Source of the DNA: Lepraria neglecta
Lineage: Eukaryota > Ascomycota > Lecanoromycetes > Lecanorales > Stereocaulaceae
Length of the DNA stretch: 64,000 bases
Assembly: GCA_033220425.1 (NCBI GenBank)
Contig: CM065651.1
Location: forward strand, 2,046,001-2,110,000
Direction of reading: 5' to 3'
Positions 21,429 to 30,184 of this stretch are shown here, in pieces. Numbering within the stretch: the first letter of the stretch is position 1; each line of letters begins with the position of its first letter. The notes beneath the pieces were generated by a model. It saw only the letters and a list, made by a program, of their open reading frames with translations, made no database searches and was not told where the DNA came from. A program made the translations under genes and the position numbers.

Positions 21429-22534
21429 ATTAAGTACAGCCTTGTGTCTCGATCAAGGAGTGAAGCAATTGAAATGTGTTGAGTGCTCCAGCAACGGCAT
21501 GTCCTTGGTGGACTCAATGGATTACTTGCCTCCTTTCTATATTCTTCGCCGCCGTATAATATGCACCGTATGCGCATAACATTGATGACATTGCATACTA
21601 TGTCAATTGACGCGCATTTTCAACATGACACACCATTCGACTGTACCGGTTCTTTGGATTCCGGAAACACGGCACCATGAAGAGTGTCTAGCTAGATTCA
21701 TCAGGCTGCCAAGTAGCCATTAAAGAGAATTGATGTCCTAATTAAAACCTTCTTGGACCCTGGATCAACTTGGCCGCGTGTTTCTTACGCTTTGAAACTA
21801 CGGATCAGTAGATCACTGGCGCAGAAATGGGCGGATAATTTCTTCCTCGTGCCACAGGCGCATAATATCCCGTGGGGAACGCCTCGATTACCGACACAGC
21901 CTCGAAGCAAACTCAGGGTTCCGTGGGGGTCAACCATTGGATGGGGTGTATTGACATCATGCGCTCTTGGAAGAATCTTGGGACGGCAAGATGGTTGAAA
22001 ACACACCGCCAGACACCACTTCTCAGTCCGAGAAACATGAAACATCTTCGTATTGTTAGAACCTTCAAATCCGGGGCAACCGGTTGCAACCTTGGTGTGC
22101 CAATCGGGCTAGTATGCACAGACTGAGAGCCTCAACGAGCAATTTAATGCAGCCAGATCGTTGTTAAGATCCGCCAAGCTTAGCCGCTTGGAATTTTCCA
22201 GTCATTCATCAAAGGGATCCATCGATATCAGGCGACTCGTGGCGAATGATAACAATTTGGAGCATGGCTAAAATAACAATCTTGCACCGCACCGTGGGGT
22301 GGCCTAGTTGCTGAAGTTGACTCAGACGACGGGATGTAGCTATTCCCCAGATATCATCCAGACAAGAGATCGTCATCGTCCCCATATTCTTCCCCCTATG
22401 TATCAGAAGCGAAGCGAGCATATCAAAGACGCGGGAAGCGATGAAGTTTAAATAAACCCCATCCCGGCGTCGTGAAACACCCCGCGTGATGAAATTTGGT
22501 CGAGGTACTTCGACTTTCAAGCCTCCACCTACAG
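21429..22534. other. intergenic, no gene seen
   Basis: Several sub-100-codon frames lie on both strands without family resemblance or splice support. This is the outer flank of the inverted repeat bordering the NACHT-WD40 gene. Confidence 0.35.
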
Positions 22535-22935
22535 TACTGAAGTATGACTAGGTAATCTTGAGGCATTTCTCCTCATGAATACCATTGATGTTGAAAATTA
22601 CACCGGGCATGGTATATTTTACGCTCGATCACTTTGAATCTATATATACATGCTATTTCAGAATTTGCTCACATACAAGACCAGATGTGGTCCGGCGCGT
22701 AATCTGAGACCTGAATCTTGTAATGGACGTGTATATAGCTTGCCTCTATCACTGGGATATAGTCCATAAGGATCTGTACGATGGATAAAGCTAGTTTAGT
22801 GATCTTGAAGGCCATACAGAGGCACATCCAAAAGTCCGAGTATTAACCGAAATACCTTGGCATAAGGTTTAAATATATATTACGTTACAGTACCGTTAAA
22901 TTCTTTTGCTATTCTATTTCCCCCACAGCTACAGC
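22535..22935. repeat. left arm of ~400-bp inverted repeat flanking the NLR gene
   Basis: The reverse complement of 28170-28578 aligns along most of this arm. Matching landmarks are gttgaaaattaca (22589), ctatatatac (22640), tgtaatggacg (22720), aagctagtttagtgatctt (22788-22806), ccttggcataa (22856) and tatttcccccacagcta (22915-22931). Identity looks near 75-80 percent by eye with a few gaps. Many differences are C/T or G/A transitions, as repeat-induced point mutation would leave. The arm is AT-rich and non-coding. Confidence 0.8.
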
Positions 22936-23257
22936 GGGATTACCCGTAATAGGACTCACAAAGCGTAAAGCTGGCTTCAGAACCCAGCAGATCCACATTG
23001 TAGCGCTGTGCTCACTGCATACCATCACGAAAAGACCAGATCTTGCCCCTATGCGACTTCTCCAACCAGTAACCCATTGACAATTGCCGTCGGCTCTTTA
23101 CCTTTGCTTTTCTCCCAACCAACCTGCCGTATGCAAAAGCCCCGCTTCTTCGGTCCCGTCGTGAGCGAGGAAGAACTAGCACGCCAGCCTCCCTGAACAA
23201 CTGTCACTACCTTTACCACTAACGCTATTCATTCAGTCATATGTGATCCTAAGAAGC

Positions 23258-26200
23258 ATGCCATCGTTCTTTTCGCAATTGAAGTTTCACCGCTCAAGTC
23301 GTGGCACGGAAGACTCAAAGAGATTGCGAAAGCACCAGGATGCCAATCCAGAGGAGAGGACGGCCGGCTCGTCCGATATATCAATTACGGCTCCAGGAAC
23401 CCCTGCAGATAGATATTTGAACAGCGATGTCTCTCATTCTGCTCGTTTTTCTGTGAGAAAAGTCAGGCTTGGGGTTTTGTAGGACAAAGGGAGAACTAAC
23501 ATCTCTTCAGCCACCAGCAACCCCACTACTTGCAGTTCATTCCCCTGCTACTGCCTCGGCTTCCTTCGTTCCCTCTTCTCCTACCGTCTCGCCAACTCCG
23601 GCTGGAAATTTCACTGAACATGCTCCCTCTGATGTTCCATCCTCTCCCTCGACGCTGTCAGAACAACTTTGGAACAAAGCATACGACGACCTTAAACAGA
23701 GAGAATTAAAAATGGTAGACGCGTACGAGAGAATTTTGTCTCGAGAACTCAAAGAAGATTGTTCAGGACACGACCCATCGCGCATCGAAAATACGATAGA
23801 GCAGGTAGATACAGCCAAGAGATGGTCGCAGATGGAACGGCTCGTCCAAGCCAGATTAGAGAAGACAGAAAGAGAAGATAGAGTTAAGGGAGCTGCTGGT
23901 GAGGTGATGCAAGGCATTCTCTCGGTGAAGGATGCTATAAGCTCGGGGCTACAGGCGGTACCGCAAGCTGCTATTGCATGGACCAGTATCTGTTTCGCCT
24001 TACAGGTAGATTCGCTCTTTACTACCATCTTAAGGCCTGTGCTGATATCTGAAGATGTTTGTAAATCCTACGACTGAGAGTAAATTGAACCGCGATGGAA
24101 CCGTCCACGTTATCGCCAGAATGGAGTGGTATTGTGAACTCTCGAGCATCCTTCTCAAAAAGGATACTGATAATAATGTCTCGTTTGCCGGAATACAAGC
24201 GGAACTGGAAAAGCGAGTTATCGATCTCTATCGAGAGCTCCTCTTCTACCTGGTGAGAAGCGTCTATTCATGTTACAGAAACCGGGGTGTTGCCTTCCTA
24301 CGCGATATGATCAAGCTTGACGACTGGGATGGCAATCTCAAAAGGGTTGAGGACGCAGAGAGCGCTGTTCGACAGGACTCCGACGTATACAATACCCACG
24401 AAATCAAGTCTAATCTTGAGAAGCTTGTCGACATTGCGAAGAAGCAAGAGAAAACCATTCTTCAAGACAAAAAGGACGAAAAATGCTTTCAACACTTATG
24501 TCTGACTGATCCACGTCTCGACAAGATACGTATCGAAGACACTCAGGGTGGTCTGCTACAAGACTCGTACTGCTGGATCCTTGAAGACGCCGACTTCCGA
24601 CGATGGCGTGAAGACCAGCAGAGCCGACTGCTCTGGATCAAGGGCGATCCCGGTAAGGGCAAGACAATGCTGCTCTGTGGTATCATCGATGAGCTGAAGA
24701 AGCCTGCTGCTCATACGTACCTCCTGTCATTCTTCTTCTGCCAGGCCACCGATTCCCGAATCAATAGCGCCGCAGCTGTTCTGCGCGGCTTGATCTACTT
24801 GCTTGTCGACCAACAACCCTCGCTCATCTCGCATGTACGTAGAAAGTACGATCATGCTGGTCGAACACTCTTCGAAGATACGAATGCCTGGGTCGCTCTG
24901 TCCGAGATTTTTACGGATATTTTGCAAGACCCGAACTTGAAGGGTACTTACTTGATCATCGACGCTCTTGACGAATGTGTGACAGACTTGCCGAAAATTC
25001 TCGACTTTATTATCCAGAAATCGTCAGTGTCATCTAGTATTAAGTGGATTGTCTCAAGTCGTAATTGGCCAGAAATCGAGGAGGTATTGGAAACAGCAGG
25101 CCAGAAAATAAGGATGTGTCTCGAGCTCAATGCAGAATCCATTTCTACTGCTGTCCGCAGTTATATTGAACATAAAGTAATTCATTTGGCGCAGCGAAAG
25201 AAGTACGACGACAAACTTAAAAACGCCGTTCGAGATTATCTATCCTCAAATGCAAATGACACATTTCTTTGGGCGGCTTTGGTTTGTCAAAATCTTGAGA
25301 ATTTCTGGAGCTGGGAAGTTCTAGCAGTGTTGGGGACATTTCCACCTACCCTTGACAAACTCTACAATGGAATGATGCAACGGATATGTACTGCGAATAG
25401 CAGTAATCTCTTCAAGCAGATACTGGCCTTAGTCACAGTTGTACGCCGGCCTATCACGCTGAAAGAACTGACGTCTTTTATTAAGACGCTAGAAGGTATT
25501 ACCGATGATCTCGAATCACTACGAAAAATTATCGAGCTATGCGGCTCTTTCCTAACTCTTCAAGGAGATACTGTATACTTCGTACATCAATCAGCAAAGG
25601 ACTTCATGCTTCAAAAAGCGTCAACTCAAATTTTTCCTTCTGGAGAAGCGGAAGTACACCATGCGATCTTTTTGAGATCGCTCGAGGTCATGTCTCGAAC
25701 CCTGCATCGCGACATGTACAGCTTATGTACTCCAGGATTTTCCATCGATCAGGTTCAACCGCGTGATCCAGACCCATTAGCTGCGGTACGGTATTCTTGC
25801 GTCTTTTGGGTTGAACATCTCAAGGAATGGGATCCCAGTAACACCGCGAAGGACAGGAATGACCTTGGAAATGGCGGCGCGGTCGATAAATTCCTGAGAC
25901 AAAAATATCTGTACTGGCTCGAGGCTCTCAGCCTTCTTGGAGGCATGTCGGAGGGAGTGCTTTCAATTATCATGCTGGAGAGTATACTACAGGTTAGATA
26001 TAGATTATTGATACCTTCTTACTCTTTGGGAGACATTCTAAGATCACTTTAGGGGAAACCAGATGCATCACAGTTGACCAACCTAGTCAGAGATGTACGC
26101 CGATTCATTTTATACCACAAATGGGCAATAGAAAATAATCCTCTCCAAGTTTATGCGTCAGCACTCATATTTAGTCCGAGCAATAGCGTAGTAAGAGAAA

Positions 26201-27864
26201 TTTTCAAGCAGGAGGAGCCCAGCTGGATTAAGACCATTCCGGGTATGGAAAGTGACTGGAATGCCTGCCTCCAGACACTCGAAGGCCATAGCGATTTGGT
26301 CAACTCGGTCGTCTTCTCGCATGACAGTAAACATCTTGCATCAGCATCAGATGACAAAACCCTCAAGATCTGGGATGCAAGCAACGGCAAATGCCTCCAG
26401 ACACTCGAAGGCCATAGCCATTTGGTCAACTCGGTCGTCTTCTCGCATGACAGTAAACATCTTGCATCAGCATCAGATGACAAAACCCTCAAGATCTGGG
26501 ATGCAAGCAACGGCAAATGCCTCCAGACACTCGAAGGCCATAGCCATTTGGTCAACTCGGTCGTCTTCTCGCATGACAGTAAACATCTTGCATCAGCATC
26601 ACATGACAAAACCCTCAAGATCTGGGATGCAAGCAACGGCAAATGCCTCCAGACACTCGAAGGCCATAGCGATTGGGTCAACTCGGTCGTCTTCTCGCAT
26701 GACAGTAAACATCTTGTATCAGCATCACATGACAAAACCCTCAAGATCTGGGATGCAAGCAACGGCAAATGCCTCCAGACACTCGAAGGCCATAGCCATT
26801 TGGTCAACTCGGTCGTCTTCTCGCATGACAGTAAACATCTTGCATCAGCATCACGGGACAAAACCCTCAAGATCTGGGATGCAAGCAACGGCAAATGCCT
26901 CCAGACACTCGAAGGCCATAGCGATTGGGTCAACTCGGTCGTCTTCTCGCATGACAGTAAACATCTTGTATCTGCATCAGATGACAAAACCCTCAAGATC
27001 TGGGATGCAAGCAACGGCAAATGCCTCCAGACACTCGAAGGCCATAGCGATTGGGTCAGCTCGGTCGTCTTCTCGCATGACAGTAAACATCTTGCATCAG
27101 CATCATGGGACGAAACCCTCAAGATCTGGGATGCAAGCAACGGCAAATGCCTCCAGACACTCGAAGGCCATAGCCATTTGGTCAACTCGGTCGTCTTCTC
27201 GCATGACAGTAAACATCTTGCATCAGCATCAGATGACAAAACCCTCAAGATCTGGGATGCAAGCAACGGCAAATGCCTCCAGACACTCGAAGGCCATAGC
27301 CATTTGGTCAACTCGGTCGTCTTCTCGCATGACAGTAAACATCTTGCATCAGCATCACATGACAAAACCCTCAAGATTTGGGATGCAAGCAACGGCAAAT
27401 GTCTCCAGACACTCGAAGGCCATAGCCATTTGGTCAACTCGGTCGTCTTCTCGCATGACAGTAAACATCTTGCATCAGCATCAGGTGACGAAACCCTCAA
27501 GATCTGGGATGTAAGTAACGGCAAATGCCTCCAGACACTCGAGGTTGGCAAGTGCCTCTCGAATATATCGTTCGATATTACTAGCTCATTTCTCCACACT
27601 GAAATAGGAACTTTTATTCTCGATCTTCCGTCAGCCTCCGTGACTACGCGGAATATAGCTGATCGTAAAAGGCCGTATCGACACGGCTATGGTTTGAGCT
27701 CTGATAACATATGGATTAAAAAAGATTCAGAGAACTTATTGTGGCTACCCTCTGAGTATCGATCATCATGCTCGGTCGTGACAGCTTCGATGGTAGCCAT
27801 TGGCTGTCCGTCAGGACGGGTGCTAATATTTCAATTTATCGACGACTCCAATCAGTTTTCTTAG
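23258..27864 (+). CDS. NACHT-WD40 STAND receptor (NWD/HNWD type)
   Basis: Four exons join in phase (23258-23452, 23511-24005, 24055-25992, 26053-27864) to about 1479 residues. Residues 1-100 are a Ser/Pro-rich lead. An N-terminal NACHT-associated helical domain (NWD type) follows, with MEWYCELSSILL and LYRELLFYLVRSVY. The NACHT NTPase has Walker A GDPGKGKT (residues 427-434) and Walker B YLIIDALDEC (around Asp533). A helical region comes next, then ten 42-residue WD40 repeats (residues 948-1367) and a C-terminal tail. Related Podospora proteins (HET-D, HET-E, HNWD) sense non-self through the WD40 propeller and then switch on cell death; other family members are viewed as immune receptors. The frame is open throughout and every splice site is canonical. 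The gene lies alone between inverted repeats. Confidence 0.93.
26266..27525 (+). repeat. ten tandem 126-bp WD40-coding repeats
   Basis: There are ten units of exactly 126 bp with no gaps. Each begins CLQTLEGHS and ends WDASNGK, and an eleventh copy breaks off after CLQTLE. DNA identity between units is very high. Amino-acid changes are confined to a few positions: residue 10 (D/H), 11 (L/W), 13 (N/S), 25 (A/V), 29 (D/H/R/W/G) and 31 (K/E), plus one A-to-V in the last unit. This is the high-internal-conservation pattern of repeats kept alike by unequal exchange while the binding surface varies. Confidence 0.97.
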
Positions 27865-28169
27865 GCAATTAGGGATTCAAAAAGCTCAGACGAAAATAGC
27901 AAAGATAGGAATAATAAATGATATGCATCTCGTATATTACATCTTCGGTTCCACACTCTACGATTTCGATTCATTGTCGTTCTCTTTGCAGATATCTAGC
28001 GATTTTTCCGTTTTTACTATCTTGCCCATCACCTTATCACACAGGTAAAACTCACACTCATTATTTGCAGCGATCGGCATAGCGGGTCAATTAAAATCTA
28101 GGTCATATCGTCTTAGGTACGCAGAGGTGCCCGGGCGCTGTAGGTGCATTAGACTCCAGATGTAAGTTT
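27865..28169. other. AT-rich 3' flank of the NLR gene
   Basis: No gene seen. This is sequence between the stop codon and the right inverted-repeat arm. Confidence 0.4.
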
Positions 28170-28578
28170 AGCTGTGGGGGAAATAGAATAGCGTGGAATG
28201 CAAAAGAACTTAACAGTATTGTAACGCGAAATATGTTTATAGCGTTATGCCAAGGTGTTTCGGCTAGTACTCGGAGTTTCGGATTTACTGTAAAGGTTCC
28301 TTTACCTGCTCTTTAAGATCACTAAACTAGCTTCATCCGTTACACAGATCCCTATCGATCAGGTTTCGCTCATAGAGGCAAGATATATATACGTCCGTTA
28401 CAAGGGTCCGGTATCAGATTGCACAGCAGATAACATCTGTATATATAGATCAGAAGTGATTCTGCGTAAAATCAACCACGCCCTCTGTAATTTTCAACAA
28501 TAATATTGTCTATGGCTGGAAAAATGCCAGAAAAGTATCGGGACCGCCTGTGCAATAATACATACTCAGTGAAATCTG
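28170..28578. repeat. right arm of the inverted repeat flanking the NLR gene
   Basis: This is the reverse-complement partner of 22535-22935, in inverted orientation 3' of the NACHT-WD40 gene. Landmarks read outward: tagctgtgggggaaata (28170), ttatgccaaggtgtttcgg (28246), aagatcactaaactagctt (28315), cgtccgttacaag (28396), gtatatatag (28439), gtaattttcaac (28486), and catactcagtg at the outer edge (28562). Confidence 0.8.
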
Positions 28579-28932
28579 ACGCTTGCCTTCATTGCTCAAT
28601 CTAAATACCAAACGCGGATATCATGCTAGACTGCTTGACCGTATCCCATTGATCCTGACTAAGAAGCCTAGAATGAAAATGTAACGCAAGGAAAAGAGGA
28701 AGAGCAGAGCATCAGAGGCATGAATGGAAACAAGCCAATGAGGTTGGTACTATTGATGATGTAGATTGATGTTTCGATAGCGGACCCATCTCCGGCAGCT
28801 TGGCGCCGATCATCCACTTCGTCCTCGTCCACCTCCCAACACCCAATTGCAATCGTACCTAAAGATGGGTAAAGCACGCTCCGCCCTCTGCCGCTCAAGT
28901 CCATCACTCAACTTTCCCGCTGATCCCCAACA

Positions 28933-30184
28933 ATGACAGCCCCCAAGTCCCCGCACCCAAACTTCCCCATCCACCACATCCCCCGCACCTGGCTCATCAC
29001 AGCCGCTACATCACCAATCGGCCTATTCGTCGCACGCGCAGCCCTCGCACACGGGGACTCCGTGATTGCAGGCGTCAAAAATGGGGAAATGGACGCGGAT
29101 GACGAGAGGGGAGAGGATTTTAGGGAGTTTTATACGCAGAAATGTGTGAGGGAGGGGGTGGAGGGAGAGGATTAGGGGGTGGAATTGGACGGGAGGTGTG
29201 AGGGTCCCGGAAATACCGAGGCGATGGGGACAACCAGCTGATACGAGTTTGGGTATAGGATTATGGGACAGTGCCAGGCCGCTGTTGCAGAGGCTGTGGA
29301 GGCTTTTGGGAAACTGGATATACTCTTATGCTGCTCGAGTGAAGGTATGAAGAACTATGGGTTGTGGATTTAGGATGATGATACTAATTGGTTTTATGGA
29401 CAGCACTCGTTGGCACGGTTGAAGAGCTCGCAGCTTCCCCACGAACTCAGACACTGGTCAGGGAACAATTCGAGACGAATTTCTTCGGACCAGTGAATAT
29501 CATCAAAGCCGCGATACCTTGTATGAGGAAAAAGGGTTCAGGACATATAATGATCTTGACAGGGATAAGTCAGTGTCAACGTTCTCCGACGATGGGCTTC
29601 TGCTAAGCTATGGTGCAGCTGGCCACCTCGGCACCCCTGGATTGGGAATGCACTGCGCATCCTGGTGGGCGCTGGAAGGCTTCTGCGACAGTCTTGCCTA
29701 TGAGATTGCCCCATTCAACATCAAAATGACCATCGTCCAACCAACGATTGAAATAGGTGTGCTAACCAACAAGATCGTATCCGCTCCATTACTACCCCAA
29801 TACGCCCGTGAGAATAACCCTGCGCCTTTGTTCAGGGACATTATTACAGGTCTCCTTGACCGTATCCAGAGTGCCCATCAAAATGGTAACCACGACGGCT
29901 CAACGCTCGCACCCAACGAGATCTCGGCTCTGTACCCTAAGCTTCCAGCCAAGATGAAGACCGCACTCCTTGCCGAGACGATAAATGCTATCACTGCGAT
30001 TGGCGGGCATGAGAATCCACCCGCGAGACACATCGTGGGGTACGAAGGTGTGGCTAGTGTGAAGGAGAAGTTGAAGACCGTCAGTGAGGAGTTGGAAGAC
30101 TTCGTGGAGGTGAGCTGTGCCGTCGATATTGATGAGGCTGAGGGCACAGAGGATTCGAACACTGGTGCAGATGGGGTGACATGA
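28933..30184 (+). CDS. short-chain dehydrogenase/reductase, probably inactive
   Basis: Four exons (28933-29195, 29259-29344, 29404-29568, 29619-30184) restore one protein of the SDR family. It shows a Rossmann segment WLITAATSPIGLFVARAAL, then KLDILLCCSSEA, FETNFFGPVNIIKAAIP, HIMILTGI and GHLGTPGLG. The catalytic Tyr-x-x-x-Lys motif, expected as Y-C-A-S-x, reads HCASW: Tyr is His and Lys is Trp. Exon 1 also holds an in-frame TAG (29173) between two G-runs, with homologous sequence resuming in frame after it, as if small G-run length changes had occurred. Either the gene is newly dead or the G-runs are misread. The substrate is unknown. Confidence 0.65.

Follow-up and report, generated by a model that had tools for sequence, protein, structure and literature searches.

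An open NACHT-WD40 receptor gene between inverted arms of a probable pogo-type transposon relic in Lepraria neglecta

Inverted arms around an open receptor gene

A 64,000-nt stretch of the Lepraria neglecta genome (contig C6, positions 2046001-2110000; hereafter, the window) contains an open NACHT-WD40 NOD-like receptor (NLR) gene between two inverted arms, which are supported as the ends of one terminal inverted repeat (TIR) DNA transposon family, the window copy being a broken relic. This unit is probably a relic, non-autonomous element of the Tc1/mariner type, with TA as its target and the NLR as its cargo, from what we take to be the pogo/Fot1 group. The reading is supported by a sister element on another contig (E1), which has both termini, the TA, the inverted order of the arms, a DDE_1 transposase remnant, and an NLR inside. 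Lepraria neglecta is a lichen-forming ascomycete of the Stereocaulaceae, and the genome analysed comprises 42.0 Mb in 11 contigs.

The left arm (22455..22966, plus strand), an L-type end, was delimited by the terminus pattern and by BLAST to the arms in stretches extracted around other loci of the family (L009-L017). It begins with the terminus AACCCCATCCCGGCGTCGTGAAAC (opening letters AACCCCATCCCGG) at 22455, and closes with an inner tail, TTACCCGTAATAGGACTCACAAAGCGT, which ends near 22966 and is common to the left arms of E1 and E4 (E1L and E4L) and to the arm of E5. Directly outside the terminus lies a TA dinucleotide (22453..22454, no strand assigned), a candidate half of a TA target-site duplication, of which the right half is lost. 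The right arm (28070..28538, minus strand) is the reverse complement of the left arm and belongs to the lineage of the E1 right arm (E1R, in L009), relative to which it lacks the outer ~119 nt; its inner edge coincides with sequence read as opening the E1 transposase frame. Since the right terminus is gone, the unit is probably unable to move now.

The two arms align in five blocks without gaps, each 24-144 nt long and 74-100% complementary. A gapped alignment gives 67% over 402 columns (E 1.6e-48), and the 361 ungapped columns are 76.7% alike. Together with a terminus control that has 0 matches, these blocks and this alignment confirm what a sequence-only reading of the window had proposed, namely, that inverted arms bracket one open NLR gene. 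That reading had recognised both arms, but the left one starts further out (terminus at 22455) and has a tail to ~22966, while the right one, which had been placed at 28170-28578, reaches further in. The arms had also been said to differ mainly by transitions, which is only mildly true (51 transitions vs. 33 transversions).

The NLR gene occupies 23258..27864 on the plus strand. Its 5' flank (22967..23126, plus strand) includes a part, 23009-23126, which is element-derived or shared cargo, because it is 75% identical over 118 nt to the interior of the E5 arm (L010 7575-7461). The E1 transposase has no BLAST match in the window, and the unit is devoid of a transposase. The interiors of the two elements share no DNA similarity at E 0.01.

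The transposon family across the genome

The family was searched with three arm queries and with the terminus pattern, allowing up to 3 mismatches. The pattern yields nine matches in 42 Mb, against none for a control pattern read backwards. In total, 13 arms were found at eight loci (E1-E8, E3 being the window unit, C6:2068453-2074538), both counts being lower bounds, since common words are passed over in the DNA search and only the best candidates are scored. E1 (C1:5348878-5355780) and E2 (C2:578437-581348) are inverted pairs with both termini and a TA at both ends. Inverted pairs with a single terminus are found at E3 and E7 (C2:1905672-1910022), on the left, and at E8 (C6:742412-744979), on the right. 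The remaining loci are solo arms, with a terminus at E4 (C8:1169941-1170811) and E6 (C3:4720053-4720567), and without one at E5 (C8:438091-438720); 'L' and 'R' denote genome orientation only for these arms, and no partner arm was found in the extracted surrounding DNA with the E1 arms as queries. Termini within 3 mismatches are, thus, absent at the right end of E3, at E5, at the right end of E7, and at the left end of E8. The E7 right arm is weak (102 columns, 71%), and the E8 left arm is partial (209 columns, 71%), with its outer half missing.

The arrangement of these arms is informative. Ten of the 13 lie in five close pairs, all five inverted, and nine carry a terminus, every one at the outer end. 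As the termini found are always outer, the arms look like the ends of elements, and not like paired miniature inverted-repeat transposable elements (MITEs). A pair of MITEs in opposite orientation was rejected, with 0/9 terminus matches at an inner arm edge, in a test that would miss termini more diverged than 3 mismatches. When 13 independent arms are placed at random, without modelling local hopping, at least one pair within 7 kb arises in 2.6% of 20000 trials, and none of the trials exceeds two pairs, where five are observed. These figures disfavour two unrelated insertions of one repeat, which had been offered as the simpler alternative; mostly solo arms in random orientation, the outcome that would have spoken against the proposal, were also looked for and are not what is observed, solo arms amounting to 3/13. 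Arm pairing is a firmer result than the NLR enrichment described below. The TA of E3, where just the left terminus is preserved, is weak evidence by itself.

Regarding the contents of the elements, E1 encloses a SesA-NB-ARC-TPR NLR, made of two long open reading frames (ORFs) with no stops and unrelated to the window NLR. Its transposase remnant is a DDE_1 match (PF03184, C1:5354229-5354669) of 77.3 bits, above the cut-off and with 5 stops, which comes from a six-frame search of the genome; the pieces with stops written as X gave no Pfam match. It is this DDE_1-type transposase in the sister element that fits the family to Tc1/mariner. The interior of E2 holds a two-part ORF with no Pfam match above the cut-off and a transposase fragment, that of E7 holds ORFs without Pfam matches, and that of E8 holds a short-chain dehydrogenase/reductase (SDR) gene. 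An NB-ARC-TPR ORF ends ~160 nt from the inner edge of the E4 arm, with matches below the Pfam cut-offs (NB-ARC, 19.5 bits for a cut-off of 23.5; upstream patatin, 26.8 for 27.7). NB-ARC and TPR ORFs lie ~1.5 kb from the E5 arm, and the E6 arm has an SDR ORF nearby and a HET-domain ORF ~2.5 kb away. At E1, E3, E4, and E5, the receptor 3' end points to an arm.

Three details of individual loci may be added. The left end of E2 appears to consist of two partial arm copies in tandem, counted once (L016 3437-3735, 3732-4118), as if one element end had been inserted into, or fused with, another. The E4 arm is broken by a ~175-nt insert (L013 1848-2022). Outside the left terminus of E7, a stretch resembling the first part of the E1 transposase (L017 3292-3589) may be a further decayed copy.

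Origin of the window unit

A first tree was computed for eight arms (E2L and E7L were omitted as partial, and E7R and E8 are not in it). It joins E1R with E3R (support 100/99), E1L with E4L (100/100), and E3L with E5 (87/88). Forcing E3L and E3R together is rejected (approximately unbiased test, p-AU 0.0016), as is E1L with E1R, and an L-type clade of E3L, E1L, E4L, and E5 is not rejected (p-AU 0.14). In a second tree, which also includes E7L and E8R, all six arms from E1, E3, E4, and E5 are separated as a group from E2R, E6R, E7L, and E8R (97/97), and the E3L and E5 grouping (85/86) is below the starred threshold, as in the first tree. The inner tail is common to the L-type arms E1L, E3L, E4L, and E5 (pairwise z 5 to 25), and is lacking in E1R, the transposase-side arm (z -0.9 to 0.2). 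Based on the arm tree, the inner tails, and the 118 nt shared by E3L and E5, the window unit appears to pair a left-type end with an end related to the E1 arm on the transposase side, the two being correctly inverted relative to each other. For the window as a whole, the TpA/ApT ratio is 0.69. The arms of both E1 and E3, together with the transposase of E1, have ratios of 0.90-1.17 and, from composition only, look altered by repeat-induced point mutation (RIP); the NLR genes of both loci, at 0.59, do not.

In the origin that we regard as probable, an element with inverted ends of ~0.5-0.65 kb would have had its interior replaced by a complete host NLR gene, which would then have become its cargo. 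The ancestor would have possessed a transposase reading inward from the right end, with a left end repeating that region in inverted form, as seen in E1. The transposase may have treated a pair of adjacent copies, or a copy plus a stray end, as a single element, and the DNA in between would have been taken up with its introns, in the way proposed for plant Pack-TYPE elements (PMC8903248). RIP-like decay would subsequently have hit the arms at E1 and E3, as well as the transposase of E1, while sparing the NLRs of both loci, and with the loss of the right terminus, the unit was probably fixed in place. The transposon cargo proposed by the sequence-only reading stands as far as the arms are concerned, these being the ends of a TIR family (as attested by the termini, TA, DDE_1 match, and NLR of E1); as for past movement with the NLR as cargo, we infer it for a unit that is probably immobile today.

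Several results weigh against this origin. The right terminus of the window unit is missing, and a genome search for other copies of the arm and of the whole unit, which had been suggested as a check, returned the 13 arms at eight loci but no second arm-NLR-arm unit. The E1 transposase is dead, and no close full-length copy is present among the 6 candidates scored, its other DNA matches covering only parts of it, the two longest ~630 nt at 66% and ~550 nt at 65%. The genome also has DDE_1 genes from other families that keep long open frames, and their transposases could act in trans on these elements. The tree test speaks weakly against a clade of E3L, E1L, and E4L alone (p-AU 0.028), so that descent from one two-ended ancestor requires the E5 arm to be counted as a left end, and the tail of E3R gives z = 3.6 with E1L, 2.9 with E4L, 0.2 with E5, and -0.1 with E3L. 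The E1 and E4 NLRs find their best matches elsewhere, on C5 (64%) and C3 (39%), respectively, which means that the cargo was not inherited along the arm tree; such inheritance was rejected as a candidate, as each of these NLRs scores higher with other loci than with the other. Finally, RIP-like composition is not general across the family, with TpA/ApT ratios of 0.77 in the E4 arm, 0.75 in the E5 arm, 0.50 in the E2 transposase fragment, and 1.01 in the E4 NLR.

The non-nearest relationship of the two window arms can be accounted for in two other ways. A composite origin, in which the segment was moved jointly by two distinct, oppositely oriented copies and the arms are what remains of two elements, is on the unlikely side; it overlaps with the preferred reading and differs from it only in how the cargo was gained. 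The grouping of the left arm with E5 (87/88 and 85/86, below the starred threshold) and of the right arm with E1R (100/99) suits it, and the fusion of neighbouring insertions is the published model of how Pack-TYPE elements gain DNA (PMC8903248). However, no inner termini were found with the terminus pattern at up to 3 mismatches, and the arms look like a left end and a right end belonging to a single type of element. Less plausible again is local hopping, whereby two family ends or truncated copies landed around a resident NLR that never moved. Besides the arm relationships, the lack of a second copy of the unit among those found is compatible with it, and NLR loci are fairly often near DDE_1 transposons anyway (13/97 within 5 kb). 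Nevertheless, 5/5 pairs are inverted, and all the termini found point outward, which is the arrangement of a single element; just 3/13 arms are solo, and E1, with both termini present, has the same plan; the 2.6% of simulations with at least one pair within 7 kb also speaks against it, for random placement in which hopping was not modelled.

It is very improbable that the NLR is the cargo of a decayed Starship instead of a pogo-type element. NLRs are known Starship cargo (PMC12134995), and the genome contains 36 DUF3435 matches, 35 of them over the cut-off, including one at C8:441004, ~2.3 kb from the E5 arm. However, among the DUF3435 matches listed, the one nearest to the window unit is ~0.54 Mb off on C6, and the one nearest to E1 is ~0.7 Mb off on C1, and the unit measures ~6 kb, ends in TIRs, and has a sister copy with a DDE_1 transposase. 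Starship cargo was rejected for the window unit, with no DUF3435 at its border, and is largely refuted for E1 and E3, while for E5 it is possible. Beside the E5 arm, the part of a TPR-type NLR that encodes NB-ARC is also duplicated in inverted orientation over 822 nt, with 91% complementarity (L010 47-868, 3187-4008; C8:430.5-434.5 kb), and the DUF3435 match ~2.3 kb beyond the arm (C8:441004-441537) is degraded. This neighbourhood is possibly a decayed Starship.

Receptor genes at the arms and comparison with known systems

A list of 136 merged NLR NTPase loci places an NLR within 2 kb of 3/8 arm loci and within 5 kb of 4/8, where random placement gives means of 0.21 and 0.36 (P 0.0008 and 0.00035). 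In a control of 97 other DDE_1 loci, the corresponding counts are 6/97 and 13/97 (one-sided Fisher test for arm loci vs. control, 0.020 and 0.023). This control was merged from 98 of 102 rows, excluding the match of E1 itself and three second halves of neighbouring matches. For the NLR list, 21 of the 59 rows of one search were entered, the remainder overlapping listed loci, and the last 2 of another search's 66 rows, adjoining listed loci, were excluded. Some hits in the 136-locus list were obtained with queries taken from E4 and E1 themselves, a bias towards these two loci, and the E4 NLR enters the list only through such queries. A shorter, incomplete list (104 loci) gives 2/8 arm loci at both 2 kb and 5 kb and 3/8 at 8 kb, with a random mean of 0.24 at 5 kb (P 488/20000, i.e., 0.024) and 8/97 in the DDE_1 control. 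Owing to the seeding of the longer list from E1 and E4, and to the 2/8 of the shorter one, the NLR enrichment at the arms is only suggestive.

The loci E1, E3, E4, and E5 all have a different NLR inside or at most 5 kb away (4/4), in contrast with E2, E6, E7, and E8 (0/4), a split that was noticed after the fact. The types are NACHT-WD40 at E3, SesA-NB-ARC-TPR at E1, NB-ARC-TPR with a weak patatin match at E4, and NB-ARC-TPR at E5. That one branch of the family is a repeat carrier of immune receptors is, at this stage, a doubtful proposition. If it were true, small cut-and-paste transposons would constitute a second, short-range route, beside Starships, to spread and reshuffle fungal NLRs, and an element end would supply part of the receptor 5' flank (window 23009-23126).

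Captured cargo is documented in other transposons. In Pyrenophora tritici-repentis, a TIR transposon of the Tc1/Mariner superfamily, like the window family, holds, in addition to its own coding region, a further ORF between the TIRs (PMC3538342). There, one ORF, with an osmosensory transporter coiled-coil domain, reached 46 members (PMC3538342), whereas the present family is low-copy, with differing contents and two unrelated NLRs. The plant Pack-TYPE elements, including Pack-Mariner, are likewise non-autonomous TIR elements, with TA duplications in the Mariner ones, and are believed to acquire host DNA that lies between adjacent insertions (PMC8903248). As in these elements, a host-type, intron-bearing gene lies between the TIRs of the window unit, with no match to the E1 transposase; neither a donor copy of the cargo nor repeated units were found in the genome, where the best other match is 61% at the protein level. 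An old capture or cut-and-paste movement would also leave no donor copy. The examples detailed in that source are elements of hundreds of bp that contain gene fragments (PMC8903248), as opposed to the ~6 kb and whole intron-containing gene seen here, in a fungus. The hAT elements of Dothideomycetes also combine a fungal DNA transposon, a host gene (histone H3), and RIP damage, but a spliced transcript was captured and hundreds of copies were inactivated (PMC6710886), whereas the window unit is of the pogo type, occurs as single copies, and keeps its introns and an open NLR. TET/JBP genes occur in several lineages of DNA transposons as well; Tc1/mariner is not named among them in the abstract of that work (PMC12730594).

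Starships are likewise mobile DNA carrying fungal NLR or HET genes, but are giant and rely on a DUF3435 tyrosine recombinase (PMC12134995, PMC9815663, PMC9594970), whose nearest listed match is over 0.5 Mb away from the window unit. The Podospora anserina het-d/het-e genes (HNWD/NWD) are also of the NACHT-WD40 type with highly similar WD repeats, and one HNWD/NWD pseudogene is immediately preceded by a transposon relic; unlike in the window unit, a TIR element bracketing an intact gene is not part of that account (PMC1805685). In the open-licence PMC literature, no report was found of an NLR enclosed by an element of the Tc1/mariner or pogo type; what is already known is cargo of other kinds in TIR transposons of fungi, and NLRs in Starships.

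The NLR repertoires of fungi change quickly, and the giant Starship is the transposon route that the papers cited here report for them. As the same rare and decayed family encloses a different NLR at E1, the present case suggests that small transposons can carry receptor genes around the genome. With a family of few-kb TIR elements that has enclosed two or more unrelated NLRs, individual receptors would have a simple way to move by cut-and-paste, and NLR birth and loss would become testable via empty TA sites between strains, with a lichen fungus as the case.

The enclosed gene

The window NLR follows a GT-AG model with 4 exons (introns 23453-23510, 24006-24054, and 25993-26052), 1479 aa, and no inner stops, this being one of several possible splice choices. 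A public Lepraria neglecta protein (P0001, OEA41_009071), 100% identical over the aligned part, supports introns 2 and 3, intron 1 and the start codon being those of our own gene model only. As introns are retained, a retroposed NLR was rejected. The NACHT_N-NACHT-WD40 architecture includes PF17100, PF24883, PF05729, PF22939, and PF00400, all above the cut-off, and the NACHT NTPase domain (24625..25173, plus strand) has, with 71.2 bits, the top NACHT score among the genome matches listed. The WD40 array (26266..27573, plus strand) has a 126-nt period. When 300-nt windows stepped by 126 nt are compared, those spanning 26266-27447 match the reference window at 96-100% identity, and the last one (27274-27573) does so at 89%; NACHT combined with WD40 repeats so alike internally is the mark of NWD/HNWD-type NLRs. 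The closest other NLR match, away from the arm loci, has 61% protein identity (residues 136-654 of a 665-aa exon).

P0001 departs from the NLR in the last WD40 unit and resumes near 28945 (window 27543-29180), so that its gene model places an intron across the entire right arm, where our model stops at 27864; this intron is probably an annotation artefact. A second NLR (C6:1993519-1995507), with 42% identity to the exon of the window NLR, is located ~75 kb upstream of it, on the opposite strand of the same contig. Another protein, P0079 (ENA), is 79% identical overall to the 665-aa exon of the window NLR and, by eye, near-identical over the last ~50 exon residues and the read-through of intron 3 (25993-26052), a pattern that suggests recombination between NLR copies.

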